From Methylocucumis oryzae (lineage in GTDB: Bacteria > Pseudomonadota > Gammaproteobacteria > Methylococcales > Methylomonadaceae): a DNA stretch of 64,000 nucleotides. Of this stretch, positions 54,101-63,718 are shown in pieces; the first letter of the stretch is position 1; every line of letters begins with the position of its first letter. Both the position numbers and the translations under genes were made by a program. Where the stretch lies: the NCBI RefSeq assembly GCF_000963695.1, contig NZ_LAJX01000029.1:1-64000 (forward strand). The letters run 5' to 3'. The notes beneath the pieces were generated by a model that saw only the letters and a list, made by a program, of their open reading frames with translations, was not told the DNA's origin and ran no database searches.

Positions 54101-55157
<1,057 letters not shown>

Positions 55158-55173
55158 GCAGAGAACCAAAATT

Positions 55174-57550
55174 ATGCAAATCAGCGAAGCTTGGTTACGC
55201 GAATATGTAAATCCGCCCATTAGCACGCAAGAATTAGTTGCGCAACTGACCATGGCAGGTTTAGAAATCGATGCAACAACACCTGCTGCTGCCGTATTTA
55301 ATCACGTTGTCGTCGGCCAAGTACTTACAATAGAACAACATCCTGATGCTGACCGACTCAAAGTATGCCAAGTTGAAGTTGGCGCTGAACAGCCTTTGCA
55401 AATCGTTTGCGGTGCAACTAACGTCAGGCCAGGCTTGAAAATTCCAGCTGCACTTATTGGTGCAGAGCTACCTGGTGACTTTAAAATTAAACGCTCCAAG
55501 TTACGTGGCGTAGAGTCTATGGGCATGTTATGCTCGGCAAAAGAGCTCGGTTTAGCCCAAGACGCCCAAGGCTTGCTAGAACTACCCGAAACGGCGCCTG
55601 TAGGTATTGACATCAGAGAATACTTAGCGCTTAACGACACGCTTATCGAGCTTGATTTAACACCTAATCGCGCTGATTGTTTAAGCATGGAAGGTATTGC
55701 ACGCGAGCTAGCCGTATTAAACCGCATGGCTTGGACGCCTACACAGTTCACAGCACATACAGCAACACACACAGAGGTTATCGCTGTAGACGTTGAAACG
55801 CCTGCTGCTTGCCCTCGTTATTTAGGGCGCTTAATCAAAAATGTTAACGCTAAAGCTGAAACGCCAATGTGGATGCAAGAACGTCTGCGTCGCTCTGGCT
55901 TAAGAAGCTTAGGCCCATTAATTGATGTAACCAACTATGTGTTAATTGAATTAGGCCAGCCTTTACACGCTTTTGATGCTGATAAATTACATCAAGGCAT
56001 TTCTGTACGCAAAGCCCAGCCAGGCGAACAGCTTGCCTTATTAAATGGCCAAACTATTACTTTAGATAGTGACACCTTAGTCATCGCCGATCAACAGAAA
56101 CCATTAGCATTAGCGGGCATTATGGGCGGTAATGACAGCGCAGTGAGTGATGAAACGTGCACTGTATTTTTAGAATGCGCATTTTTTTACCCCACAAGAA
56201 ATTGCCGGGAAAGCACGGCGCTATGGTTTACACACAGATTCATCGCACCGCTTTGAGCGCGGCGTCGATCCAAGCTTACAAACTCGCGCTATCGAACGCG
56301 CCACCCAGCTAATCGTAGACATTGCTGGCGGTAGCGTAGGTTCGATAATCGAGCAAACCAGCGCAGCTCATTTGCCTGTACGTCCTACGATAAGTTTACG
56401 GAAAGCGCGTTTAGCCAAATTGCTAGGCGTTACCATTGACGATGCGTTAGTTGAAGACATTTTGCAACGTCTAGGCATGAAAGTAACAGCGAACGCAGGC
56501 AACTGGGACGTTACGGCGCCTGGCGCACGTTTTGATATTGCTATAGAAGCTGATTTAATTGAAGAAATTGCCCGAATTTACGGCTATAACCAATTACCAA
56601 AATCAGGCTCACTGATGCGTAGCGAATTACAATCCGCTACCGAATCAGTGTTAGAACTAAACCGGGTTGCCGACACCTTAGTTGACCGAGGCTATCAAGA
56701 AACGATTACCTATAGCTTTGTAGACGAGGCTATACAAAAAGCCATAGCCCCCGATGCTGAATTGATTCGCCTACAAAACCCAATATCTTCGGAACTGTCT
56801 ATTATGCGCACCAGTTTATGGTGCGGATTATTAAAAGCAGCACTGTATAACTTAAATAGACAGCAAAACCGAGTGCGCTTGTTTGAAACAGGTTTACGTT
56901 TTGTCAAAGAAAATAACGTAACATTACAACAAAAATCCATAGCGGGACTTATTACGGGCAACACCTATCCAGAACAATGGGGGCTATCCAGTAAACCAGC
57001 AGATTTTTACGATATAAAAGCCGATGTACAGGCTTTATTCGCGTTAACAGGTGTTAACGTAAATTATCTAGCGGACACACACCCCGCTTTACATCCAGGG
57101 CAAACCGCTAAAATAACGAGTGCAACAGGCGAAACCATAGGCTACGTCGGTATGCTGCACCCTGTTTTAGAGAAGCAACTCGGTTTTGATAATCGAGTCT
57201 TTTTATTTGAATTAGACCAAACTCTATTATTGAATAAAAAAATCCCTAAATTTAAACCGCTATCTAAATTTCCATCGGTGCGCAGAGACTTAGCGCTTAT
57301 CGTTAAAGAAACCATAAACGCAGAACAAATTGTTGCTTGTGTTCATGAAATCAATGAGCCTATATTACAAGACGTTGTAATATTTGACGTTTATAGAGGC
57401 AAAGGTGTCACAGAAGATTCAAAAAGTATAGCGTTAGGCTTGTTTTTACAAAATGACAACCAAACTCTGACGGATTCTGAAATTGATGCTATAGTAAATA
57501 GAGTGTTAGAAAATTTGACCAACAAAATTAGTGCAAAGCTGAGGGATTAA
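55174..57550 (+). CDS. pheT: Phenylalanyl-tRNA synthetase beta subunit, frameshift
   Basis: About 791 residues after removing one T in 56182-56188, which restores AFFTPQEIAGKARRYGLHTDSSHRFERG-type sequence (written here in two overlapping parts of the family motif). The N-terminal tRNA-binding domain (VVVGQVLTIEQHPDADRLKV), the B5 domain, the catalytic-like domain and the C-terminal FDX-ACB domain (FPSVRRDLALIV) are visible in order. It contains the editing site. It follows pheS by 16 bases. Confidence 0.95.
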
Positions 57551-58242: not shown

Positions 58243-58319
<77 letters not shown>

Positions 58320-58376
58320 ATTAAATCAATGACTTAGAAAATCATGTTTTTTGAAAAACCTCAAAATAGCGGTTTC

Positions 58377-58400
58377 GGGATAGCATCCGGGATAGCATTT
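58377..58400. promoter_or_regulatory. Tandem GGGATAGCAT repeats near attL (candidate integrase arm sites)
   Basis: Two copies of GGGATAGCAT separated by CC, followed by TT. The identical 24-bp arrangement occurs at 63463-63486 near attR, in the same orientation, and in both places AAATCAATGACTTAG precedes it. Confidence 0.6.
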
Positions 58401-58477: not shown

Positions 58478-58711
58478 TTACCCGGCCTTGTTTGCTCCAT
58501 ACCCCACCATCAAAAATATCAATTCATCATCGGTCATTTCGTCGATTGAACGCCCCGCTATGATTGCCTTGCACTGCTCATCTGTCCAAGGTGAAGGCAT
58601 AAGGTCTGGGTTGGCTATCAATGCCAATAATTCATCATCGGGCATCTTGTCGGGCATCTTAGGGATGCGATGACTGGTCTCCAGCTTGGCTAATCGGGTT
58701 TTTATGTTCAT
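58478..58711 (-). CDS. Small element-encoded protein, unknown
   Basis: 77 residues: MNIKTRLAKLETSHR, then an acidic Asp/Glu/Leu-rich part with two copies of a DDELL/DDELI-like motif. The start overlaps the upstream gene's stop as ATGA. It is the last gene of the element's leftward operon. No function recognised. Confidence 0.6.
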   Translation of the reverse strand: MNIKTRLAKLETSHRIPKMPDKMPDDELLALIANPDLMPSPWTDEQCKAIIAGRSIDEMTDDELIFLMVGYGANKAG

Positions 58712-58974
58712 TGGTTCGCCTCCAGGGCTTCAATTCTTTTTTCAAGGTCGCTACCTTCAATGACTTTGCCCACGGCCTGCAAGCACCAAGTCAGTTTGGT
58801 AGCGTCCTGAACATCTATGGTGCCGCTTCTGGCTTCACGGTACACCTTCGCCATTTCGCGCTTCACATCCTGCATGGTGTCCAGCTTGCAGCGGTATCGC
58901 TGGCCTTTCTGTGGGGGTAAGGTTTCGACCTCACCCGTTGCGCCATCTATCTCCACCGGGTATTTGTTGCTCAT
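58708..58974 (-). CDS. Small element-encoded protein, unknown
   Basis: 88 residues: a short N-terminal part (MSNKYPVEIDGATGEVE), then a helical region MQDVKREMAKVYREARSGTI ending in a coiled segment. It is coupled by ATGA to the downstream small gene. Similar small proteins occur in prophages and islands; no function is assigned. Confidence 0.6.
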   Translation of the reverse strand: MSNKYPVEIDGATGEVETLPPQKGQRYRCKLDTMQDVKREMAKVYREARSGTIDVQDATKLTWCLQAVGKVIEGSDLEKRIEALEANQ

Positions 58975-59061: not shown

Positions 59062-59156
59062 CGGACACCCGGACACTTCTATAGAAGTGTGTCCGTGTCC
59101 GTCCTGCTAATAACCCCGGACAACTTTTTAATTTGTCCGGTCTTGTCCGGTGTCCG
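59062..59156. promoter_or_regulatory. Iteron-like TGTCCG cluster, candidate replication origin
   Basis: Eight copies of TGTCCG or its complement lie within 95 bp (59062, 59070, 59090, 59096, 59117, 59134, 59144, 59151). They form two nested palindromes: CGGACACTTC around a TATA centre, and CCGGACAA/TTGTCCGG with an AT-rich loop. The cluster abuts the 3' end of the replication gene and has no coding potential. Origin function is inference. Confidence 0.55.
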
Positions 59157-59163
59157 TCCGCCC

Positions 59164-61241
59164 TCATTCGAAAATTCGCCAAACATAAGCGTCATATTCA
59201 ACAGTAAAGCCCTGATTCAATAACCTGTCACGGCATCGCTTGAACGCTTTACGCTTTGCACCATCGGTGTTGGCATCCACGACAATCGCCTTATAAGCCA
59301 GCTCGCGCCAATGCTCGATAGGAACAATCTTTTGATGCTTGCCGACAAAGGAATCGAATCCGCCAAACTTGGCTTTTATCTCCGCTGTCGGTTCTACCCA
59401 TGTGCCACAATAGCCTCACTAAGACTGGTTAAAATAGCATCATCACGCGCCGATAATTTGCGCTTTTTGGTATTGGTTTTGGCTTCTCCGCCATGCTCCA
59501 AATAAACGCTTGTCAGTGGTTCGCCATCATCGTCGCACCAATCCAAATCAATCGGCTTTAGATTGAATTGCAGTGGTTTGAAGGCTTCAAAGTCTTTAGC
59601 CTTATGACAGGTTAGGACAATCGCGCCGCCATCCTTGGTGGCGGAAAATTCGCCATCCATCGCCGCCCGTATGCTGGAACTGCCCCGGCTTCGGTCTTTT
59701 TGCCCATGCCCAGAATGATGAACAATCAAAGCCGCCGCCCCAAGCGGTTTAAGGTACAAGTCCACGTTATTAATAAACCGGCCTATGTCTTGGCTGCTGT
59801 TTTCATCGCCGTTCATGTTGCGGTGTAGGGTGTCGATAATCACTAGACCAGCATTCGGACAAGTGGCTTTGATGGTATCAGCTAACCAATTGATATTTTG
59901 AGCGTCCATAAAATCCGCCGGTCTTTTGCTGATAAACAGCCATTCGGGTACTGTCTGCTGATATTTGACTTCTAATGCCTTAAGCCTACGCGCCATGCCT
60001 GCGAAACCTTCACCGGCAATAATGACGACATCGGTTTTCTTAGTCCGGTAATCATTCCAATCCATACCAGCCGCCATGCAAAACGCCCAATCCAAAGCAA
60101 ACAGCGATTTTCCCGCGCCCGGTTCACCGAACAACAAATTAAGGCTTCCCTGTTCGATGATGCTTTCAAGTAGCCAGTTGATTTTAATCGGCGTTGCTGT
60201 CAATTCTGAGGCTTTTATCAGTGGGAACAATGGCTTTGCCTGCCTTGGGTCGCTTTCGTTTTGTGGCGTGTTTTTGGCATGTTCCTGCATATAAAGCCGC
60301 TGGTTTTGCTTCGTGATTTCAGAATTCCAGTTAATCGCCTTGGAATAGTCGCCGTCGCACTCCAGCAAGCGCATACAGTCAAAGGCATCATGGGCAAATC
60401 CATCGTTCAGCACATCGCCGCCATGACTATAAACCCGCTCCACGCCGCCCGCACAATTTCGCATAATTACCGCGCCGGGTGCTTTAGATGAACTGCCGGC
60501 CTGATAAACCTATCCTTCCCGGTGGGCTTGTAACCATTGCGCATAAGTACATCCGACACACAACAAGACTGGTTAAACTCTTGGATAGGGTTACGCCAGT
60601 TCGGTAACTGTTCGCCTTGCTGCGGTGTGTGTGGTGCAATTTTGTGCGGTTCAGGTATGCCTAATGCAGAATCAAGGCAAGGCTTCCAGTCGTCCCAGTG
60701 TTGCAGCATATCCAGTAAAACCGCTGGCGCTTCGGGAATCGCGGCAGGATTACCAATTAACTGATATGCGCCGCCGTCTGGATGCTTGCCAATATCACAT
60801 CTTGCAATTGCCACAACGTAATTCAAAGATAACAGCGCTGTTGTGTTTGAGTTGCCGCAAGCCTGCCCCCTCAAAGTCTTGAGGCAGTCTAAAAAGCAAT
60901 TTGCCATGGTTCGGCTTTGGGCTTTTGACTTCAGCCCGCTGTTCGCTTTCTAGCCAGTCTAAAAGCTGTAAGTCAGTTACTTCTTCAAAGACACGCCGCG
61001 CCACTTCCACATTATCAAGGTCAAGTGCAATTGTGTTTGATGCACCATGATAAAGCCCAAAATTAAAGCCTTCACAGCTGATAAAATCCGCCGCGTTGTT
61101 GCTGTAGCCGTTTGGGTTTTCGTTGCTTCTTGGCTGATTCCAGCCTTTGCGAGCTGGATTTTTTGAGGGCTTGCCGTTATTGTCGGGTATAGGAACTAAC
61201 GACAACCCCGCCGCGCATAATGCTGTAAGCTGTTGTTCCAT
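59164..61241 (-). CDS. PrimPol-RepA-type replication protein (primase-polymerase plus helicase), several frameshifts
   Basis: The start ATG 61241 has GGAGGG seven bases upstream. The N-terminal domain resembles the bifunctional primase/polymerase family (GLSLVPIPDNNGKPSKNPA, ALDLDNVE, HPDGGAY). A middle region follows, then a RecA-like ATPase with Walker A GEPGAGKS, VVIIAGEGFAG and the RepA-like VIIDTLHRNMNGDENS and LIVHHSGHG. Indels at about 60795-60815, 60494-60500 and 59397-59399 split it; the last correction adds a C-terminal domain ending YVWRIFE. Restored length is about 690 residues. It probably initiates replication of the excised element at the adjacent iterons. Confidence 0.75.
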
Positions 61242-61243
61242 TT

Positions 61244-61537
61244 TTAGCCCTCCAACAAAAGAACATAGCACGCCACTCGGTGCTTACCTTTGCCAGTATC
61301 ATCGGTCGACCAATGGGTTACGATGTTATGGCCTTGCTCCCTTAATTCCTGAACACGCGCCGCTGGGTGCATTATGTCCAATTCTTGCCGCGCTTGTAGA
61401 GTTGTAAGTGGCGCATGGTTGAGCCAGTCAAGTATTTTGTGGCGTTGTGAATTGGTGTCGCTGGGGGTAAAATGGCATTGCTGTTTCCCGCCTGATCTGC
61501 TGCCCGGTTCCCGCCGGGCGGTGCCTAATCTGCCCAT
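61244..61537 (-). CDS. Helix-turn-helix protein
   Basis: 97 residues. A winged-helix-like core runs from RHKILDWLNHAPLTTLQ to VQELREQGHNIVTHW, with a final strand KHRVACYVLL. Such proteins are common in phage satellites and islands. GGGGG stands upstream of the ATG, beside the alpA stop. It probably binds DNA. Confidence 0.65.
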   Translation of the reverse strand: MGRLGTARREPGSRSGGKQQCHFTPSDTNSQRHKILDWLNHAPLTTLQARQELDIMHPAARVQELREQGHNIVTHWSTDDTGKGKHRVACYVLLLEG

Positions 61538-61539
61538 GA

Positions 61540-61746
61540 TTAAGCCCCCATTTCTTCATGACGCGCCGACGCTTTATCAGCAAGCCATTGGTCAACTTCA
61601 GACTCAAGAAAGCCCATTGTGCGCGGTGATAATTGTATTTGTTTTGGGAATTTGCCCGCTTTTAGAAGGCTGTAGATTGTGGAACGGCTAAGGCCGGTCT
61701 TTTGGATTGTTACGGGTAAGCGGATTATTTTGTTTGATTTCGACAT
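61540..61746 (-). CDS. alpA: AlpA-family DNA-binding regulator
   Basis: 68 residues with an excisionase/AlpA-type HTH (TGLSRSTIYSLLKAGKFPKQIQL) and SEVDQWLADKASAR; no longer stretch is needed to place it. AlpA proteins regulate or assist integrase of P4-like islands. It is first in the leftward operon after the integrase. Confidence 0.85.
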   Translation of the reverse strand: MSKSNKIIRLPVTIQKTGLSRSTIYSLLKAGKFPKQIQLSPRTMGFLESEVDQWLADKASARHEEMGA

Positions 61747-62084: not shown

Positions 62085-63392
62085 TCAGCCCGCCTTATTG
62101 TGCAGCAAGACCACGTTGGAACCGTCCATATTCACCAGCAAATTAAGCCTATCGCCTAATTTTTTCCATGCCTCTGCCTGTTCCGCTTTCAATTCTTGAC
62201 GCTGATAGATCCGTTTAACCTTGTTTTCTTCGGTGTGATTCAAGCATTTTTCAATCACATCCGGGCTGATACCTAAATCGCCCATTAACGTGGCTCCTGT
62301 GCGCCTCAAATCGTGCGATGTCCATTTGCCGCCTGTCAGCACTAACGCTTGTGAATCTTTAGAACGCCCGCTGAGAATGGTTGCAGTTTGCCGCCCGCGT
62401 ATCTGAATGCCGATTGATTTATCACAAACATGGCTGGAATTATCGCGATTCGGAAAAATCCAGGTATCGGTTTGCCGGGTGGTTGCCAGTCGCTTAAATT
62501 GCTCAAGTGCGAAGTCGGACAAATAAATCGTGTGCGCTTTGCCATTTTTGCTGTTGGATTCGGGAATAGTCCAGGTCTTCGCTTCAAAATTTACATCACA
62601 CCATTGTGCTTTTGACAGCTCACCGATACGACACATTGTTGATAGTGCAATCCAGACGGCACACTCCGTTGATTGCATAAAATTAGCATCGGGCATTTGC
62701 CGCGCTAACGCCCTGATTTCAGTTTCAGATAAGGTTCTGTCACGCTCTGTCGGCGCAGTGGTTAGTCGAACCACGCTAAGGCTTGCGGTGGGGTCAAACT
62801 CAATAATGTCACGGTCAACGGCGAACCTGAACATTTGCCGCATTAGCTTTAGGATGTTTCGCGCACTATGAACAGCATCGCGTTGTTTCAGTAGGTCAAT
62901 CACCTGTGTGATATGCCCTTTCCTGACATCCTCAACAAACAGGCCACCCAACACTGGCAACACGTCCTTTTCAAACATGCGGATGATTTCCTTAACGTCT
63001 TTGCGTTTGAGTAAATCGGTATCGCGCCAGCGAACAAACAAATCCCGCACTGTCACCCGCGCAGCCAGTTTGGTTATGGCTTCCTGTTCGGCAAGCTGTT
63101 GTTGTTTCGCCCGCTCTATTTTAAGTTTCGCCTCCAAGTTCGGGTCAATACCTTCTTTTAGCATTTGCGTGTAACTATCGCGCTCTGCCCGCGCCGCCGG
63201 TAAATTATCGGCTTTTAGAGTTAGCCATTTTTGCTTTCCTTCAAAGCGATAAAAGAACCGGAACGATATAGAGCCGCCTTGATTGACAGGTCTAACCCTA
63301 ATGTACAGATTGCCGCCATCGGGGATAAGTTGCTCTTTTTCGGTTGGCTTCAGGTTCTTAAATTTCAGCGCTTTTATTCTATTGATAGCCAT
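62085..63392 (-). CDS. Tyrosine integrase, P4-type (DUF4102 N-terminus)
   Basis: About 435 residues from ATG 63392; a TTG start nine codons earlier is possible. The N-terminal arm-binding domain (LIPDGGNLYIRV, FRFFYRFEGKQKWLTLK) is typical of P4-like integrases. The catalytic domain has Arg in STMCRIGEL, H-x-x-R in SHDLRRTG, His in CLNHTEEN and the nucleophilic Tyr in KRIYQRQE. All catalytic residues are present. No indel is visible. Confidence 0.93.
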   Translation of the reverse strand: MAINRIKALKFKNLKPTEKEQLIPDGGNLYIRVRPVNQGGSISFRFFYRFEGKQKWLTLKADNLPAARAERDSYTQMLKEGIDPNLEAKLKIERAKQQQLAEQEAITKLAARVTVRDLFVRWRDTDLLKRKDVKEIIRMFEKDVLPVLGGLFVEDVRKGHITQVIDLLKQRDAVHSARNILKLMRQMFRFAVDRDIIEFDPTASLSVVRLTTAPTERDRTLSETEIRALARQMPDANFMQSTECAVWIALSTMCRIGELSKAQWCDVNFEAKTWTIPESNSKNGKAHTIYLSDFALEQFKRLATTRQTDTWIFPNRDNSSHVCDKSIGIQIRGRQTATILSGRSKDSQALVLTGGKWTSHDLRRTGATLMGDLGISPDVIEKCLNHTEENKVKRIYQRQELKAEQAEAWKKLGDRLNLLVNMDGSNVVLLHNKAG

Positions 63393-63462
63393 TTTTGAGT
63401 TTATTTGTTTTTTTGACAAGTGATAGGAATTAAAAAAATCAATGACTTAGCTTGATTTTTTA

Positions 63463-63486
63463 GGGATAGCATCCGGGATAGCATTT
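63463..63486. promoter_or_regulatory. Tandem GGGATAGCAT repeats near attR
   Basis: Identical to the pair at 58377-58400, located between the integrase start and the attR core. Confidence 0.6.
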
Positions 63487-63611: not shown

Positions 63612-63659
63612 TCTGGGGGGCAAGTGGTAGCAGGTTCAAATCCTGTCGTCCCGACCAAT
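63612..63659 (+). repeat. attR core (duplicated tRNA-Pro 3' end)
   Basis: Matches 47 of 48 bases of 58274-58321. The 5' half of a tRNA is absent upstream, so this is not a second functional tRNA gene. Confidence 0.9.
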
Positions 63660-63718
63660 AAAATTAATAAGTTAGCTGCTTTTTTAAGTCTTGTTATTTT
63701 TGTAGTGTAGTAAATCTG

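Follow-up and report, generated by a model that had tools for sequence, protein, structure and literature searches.

The window, a stretch of 64 kb at the start of contig NZ_LAJX01000029.1 of Methylocucumis oryzae (host assembly a MAG, completeness 88.6%), contains an island of 5338 bp flanked on either side by a copy of a 64-nt direct repeat that overlaps a tRNA-Pro (GGG) gene (58243-58319, plus strand; ARAGORN and Rfam), the site of integration. By repeat comparison, the left att copy (58274-58337, plus strand) is 92% identical to the right copy (63612-63675, plus strand). In 500-bp steps, the GC content is mostly 43-50% within the island and 36-42% at its ends and outside them. Just inside each end lies one copy of a 28-nt direct repeat (TTT.GGGATAGCATCCGGGATAGCATTT; 58373-58400 and 63459-63486), possibly the arm sites of the integrase.

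All genes recognized in the island lie on the minus strand. They encode a tyrosine integrase with an arm-binding domain (62085-63419; Pfam Phage_integrase, 1e-21), an AlpA-type regulator/excisionase (61540-61746; an ORF with a Pfam Phage_AlpA match, 1.7e-20), a small winged-helix protein (61244-61537; Pfam HTH_39, 6.5e-19), an initiator composed of PrimPol, AAA_25 (RepA-like helicase) and winged-helix domains (59167-61271; Prim-Pol 5.9e-10, AAA_25 8.6e-38), and two small predicted proteins from the ORF list that have no PHROG match (58708-58974 and 58478-58711). No capsid or terminase gene was recognized in the island from the ORF list, Pfam or PHROG. The initiator gene is split over four open frames (61271-60795, 60907-60467, 60509-59397 and 59415-59167) by three frame changes, one of which (near 59397-59415) falls inside the C-terminal winged-helix domain (59167-59460, delimited by alignment and by the predicted fold of the homologous domain of locus L092). 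Outside the island and just upstream, pheS and pheT (54137-57550), which are expected to be essential, each appear in the ORF list as two overlapping or adjacent ORFs rather than one, and therefore indel or sequencing errors in the assembly are suggested; the frameshifts in the initiator gene are equally likely to stem from sequencing error and from decay.

About 8 bases beyond the stop codon of the initiator gene (59164-59166, minus strand) begins a cluster of eight exact TGTCCG/CGGACA units within 95 bp (59062-59156; unit starts 59062, 59070, 59090, 59096, 59117, 59134, 59144 and 59151), a candidate origin on the basis of a unit search, a palindrome check and a blind scan. The first-pass annotation had reported eight such motifs arranged as nested palindromes immediately 3' of the replication gene; the positions of the motifs are exactly as it gave them, the palindromes are real and the location stands, with the correction that this assembly splits the gene over four frames. 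Because the stop codon of the gene comes before the repeats in the window, a reading in which protein coding continues through them was rejected. The unit occurs 28 times in the full 64-kb window, where shuffles lead one to expect 17.6 occurrences. When all 450-bp stretches of the window were scanned blindly, no repeated 6-mer was as extreme as that of the cluster (n = 8, p 1.6e-12; the runner-up, an unrelated stretch, 1.1e-8), and the folding stability of its strand exceeds that of 200 of 200 shuffles (z -4.1). No further copies of the cluster were found in this genome.

Read in the same direction as the gene (minus), the eight units have the start-to-start spacing >7>10>17<21>6>20<8< and form two blocks of conserved spacing. 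Block I (59117-59156) consists of direct units followed by an opposed unit across the A/T-rich spacer AATTAAAAAGT, and in block II the last opposed pair of units encloses a central 18-bp palindrome, ACACTTCTATAGAAGTGT in gene sense (59074-59091, coordinates taken from the sequence to about +/-2). Judged by eye, the A/T-richness of the block spacers AATTAAAAAGT and GTTATTAGC is only moderate.

Relatives of the helicase region were collected from 51 of 311 genomes of the order and from other classes and IMG/VR, where an alignment search yielded 24 relatives and a scan with a single protein yielded none. The only relative with a name is a Methylovulum MAG. Homologous elements without repeats at this place had been named in the first-pass annotation as grounds against an origin, and what was found is the converse: about 40 relatives have, in the same place, the same layout of direct units spaced by about 10 bp and then opposed units around a covarying palindrome, and the spacing of the units in the window, their layout intact, is identical to that of L008. 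The annotation had also proposed that the same motif would accompany homologous genes, which holds for the layout but not for the word, as this differs between loci (CGGACA, CGAACA, CGGGACA, CGTTACA, GGGTACA and others) while spacing and orientation are largely kept. Blind 6-mer enrichment in the 450 bp after the domain reached p<1e-8 at 42 of 56 loci, whereas 0 of 106 control stretches did so (0/56 inside the gene, 0/50 further downstream). For the words of the relatives, a Markov expectation was used in place of a word-count shuffle often dominated by A/T runs. Around the centre, 97% of the palindrome's pairs are kept across 16 distinct sequences, with 17 double-change cells, and pairing falls to at most 56% when the partner is slid as a control. 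Six loci (L118, L076, L084, L033, L034 and L014) have no clear word of the ACA type. Two others (L027 and L028) are unusually rich in units, with 21 CGTAAC words within 450 bp and more than one cluster. At L023, L025, L026 and L111-L113, the initiator ORF does not end with the winged helix but continues for some 50-150 further codons, which reach into the repeat region or cross it.

The variation of the word among loci was compared with that of the protein by testing each of 327 columns of an alignment of the AAA_25 and C-terminal regions against the base before ACA. Column 330 ranked first (z 10.1; next 6.5). At 40 of 40 loci, lysine occupies this column when ACA is preceded by G and then G or T, and never otherwise (lysine with G[G/T]ACA, 21/21; other residues with other words, 19/19; leave-one-out accuracy 0.90, against 0.77 for the next column), counts that are not all independent because words and proteins share ancestry. 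On a tree from which the recognition helix had been left out, the base changes 11 times, the residue 11 times and the two taken jointly 13 times, against at least 16 joint changes in shuffles; among ten independent pairs on this tree, eight switch together the same way and none the opposite way. That the rule takes a two-base form was recognized only after inspection of the 40 loci, and the rule was put in writing before a held-out set of further loci was fetched, a set that is small but alone counts as independent. Of these, all three lysine loci fit (L154, L156 and L158, the word of L154 being weak) and none of four non-lysine loci (L155, L159, L160 and L161) has the lysine word; L157, with threonine and GGGAAC, is readable as an exception, and the parts of the rule concerning Met/Val and Gln received no clear test. 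The weight of the two-base rule comes from the switches on the tree together with the held-out loci. Base -6 was left unused because the columns correlated with it are spread over the whole protein and resemble clade signal. In the window, the specificity residue indicated by covariation is the lysine encoded by AAA at 59248-59250 (minus strand; coordinates from the sequence), within the recognition helix AKR[K]AFKRCRDR.

The C-terminal domain of L092 was predicted by AlphaFold2 to be a winged helix with the tracked residue in helix 3. Foldseek alone gave no match to the predicted domain at E<=0.001; in the VIA comparison, ORC, Cdc6 and MCM winged helices matched at Z of about 8-9, which is evidence of fold only. 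The same helicase and winged helix, with the same kind of iterons, are fused to PrimPol at L008, L010, L020, L110 and L093, to TOPRIM with or without a zinc ribbon at L018, L090, L112 and L113, to a BT4734-like domain at L031 and to DnaB_N at L036. Because the N-terminal primase is swapped for unrelated modules while the iterons persist, comparison of these proteins indicates that the DNA is probably read by the winged helix at the C-terminus of the RepA-like helicase and not by PrimPol as such, and suggests that the origin travels with the helicase and winged helix while the primase part is swapped. The proposal of the first-pass annotation that the element's own initiator recognizes the cluster is thus retained for the protein and refined for the part that reads, PrimPol being exchangeable. 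We consider it fairly likely that a single residue of the recognition helix sets the bases before ACA, such that the specificity and compatibility of an origin would be predictable from the protein and changeable by a single substitution. If this rule is true, island compatibility and cross-talk could be read from sequence and tested by single substitution, and specificity would be readable as a code throughout a large family of initiators from islands and phages.

The cluster at 59062-59156, with its iterons and central palindrome, is thus very probably the origin from which a PICI-like integrated island of 5.3 kb replicates. The support is at the level of sequence: a layout kept 3' of the gene, diversity of the word, and covariation both of residue with word and within the palindrome; recognition by the element's own initiator, as first proposed, is favoured by the covariation of the word with the winged-helix residue. 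In small islands, the origin is usually a visual guess and is seldom paired with its reader.

The three frame changes could also mean that the initiator is a pseudogene in this strain and the cluster a dead origin here, a relic; this is compatible with the origin reading and is a possibility of lesser likelihood, given that the units and layout are intact, with the spacing of L008, and that the fragmentation of pheS and pheT points to assembly errors. It is quite improbable that the repeats are operators through which another DNA-binding protein of the island controls the small downstream genes: a small ORF follows the cluster at a distance of 88 bp, and the island also encodes HTH_39 and AlpA proteins, but near-identical HTH proteins accompany CGAACA in L148 and CGGACA in L149, a different HTH protein accompanies CGAACA in L152, inspection by eye of the ORFs listed for L151 (CGGACA) showed none like HTH_39, and it is the helicase's own residue that follows the word. 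The hairpin is most unlikely to terminate or attenuate transcription of the operon, with the repeats as by-products of a stable RNA stem, for although the stem shows compensatory changes and the strand folds strongly, no terminator-like site was called at the hairpin by sequence (an attenuator had been named in the first-pass annotation as an observation against an origin), Rfam matched tRNA only, the direct units about 10 bp apart sit outside the stem, L023, L025 and L026 have units inside a still-open reading frame, and an RNA structure is not expected to follow a residue of the helicase recognition helix.

As an origin, the cluster would function once integrase and AlpA had excised the island. 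Its units would then be bound by the RepA-like helicase through the C-terminal winged helix, and their spacing of about 10 bp would place the subunits on one face of the DNA; a helicase ring could be loaded at each of the two opposed arrays, the DNA would open at the A/T-rich spacers or the palindrome, and the fused PrimPol would prime synthesis for extension by the host polymerase. Specificity would be dictated by the winged helix, lysine at one position of the recognition helix going with G and then G or T before ACA, and Met, Val or other residues at that position with other words.

The best explanation of the cluster is an iteron origin of the kind found in SaPI and Gram-negative PICI elements, here putatively read by a helicase of the RepA (RSF1010) type. 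As in SaPI and the Gram-negative PICI EcCICFT073 (Fillol-Salom 2018, PMC6092414), the origin is directly 3' of the initiator gene and has two sets of iterons; there the initiator acts on its own origin, as is predicted here. The C-terminal domain of SaPI Rep reads iterons directly downstream of its gene (PMC7581432), and a plasmid was maintained significantly less well once the EcCICFT073 ori had been deleted (PMC6092414). The combination of int, AlpA and primase-helicase genes in a small att-flanked island also resembles Gram-negative PICI, although this island has no recognized capsid or terminase gene and no known helper. Unlike PICI and SaPI, it has a RepA/AAA_25-type helicase with interchangeable primase parts, units of 6-7 bp ending in ACA, and a covarying central palindrome. 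The pRN1 replicon likewise encodes a PrimPol-helicase-winged helix protein, ORF904, and has a stem-loop 3' of the gene that is required (PMC4234260), but its helicase belongs to SF3 and it has no iterons, whereas the island has an AAA_25/RepA core and clear iterons. In SCCmec, the C-terminal domain of Cch2 binds 5-nt direct repeats downstream of the gene (PMC7581432), which is similar to the short repeats and predicted C-terminal reader here, but Cch2 has a D5-type helicase, AAGTG repeats and a separate polymerase-like primase. By sequence, the solved structure nearest to the helicase core is that of RSF1010 RepA (1g8y, 1nlf; E 1e-8); initiation in RSF1010 involves three separate polypeptides (summarized in PMC4234260), whereas the island fuses primase and helicase, and iteron reading appears to reside in the C-terminus of the helicase. 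PICMI minimal satellites (PMC10803314) are similar in having about six genes, among them integrase, AlpA, primase and few others, but their model has a DUF3987/DUF5906 primase and a fis site where the island has PrimPol (PF09250)-AAA_25 and tRNA-Pro, so the island falls outside the definition of PICMI. A single literature search for islands of this type in Methylococcales returned nothing relevant.

Capsid-bearing islands of Klebsiella and E. coli (L039 and L041) have the words GCGGCA and AAGTGAG, respectively, 3' of RepA-family helicase genes. Where one genome has two modules, the words differ in G173 (L007 and L043, CGAACA and CGGACA) and in G176 (L017 and L042, CGAACA and GGGACA), a pattern that incompatibility between equal words would predict, but the pair in G717 (L113 and L119), which have CGGGACA in common, runs contrary to it.
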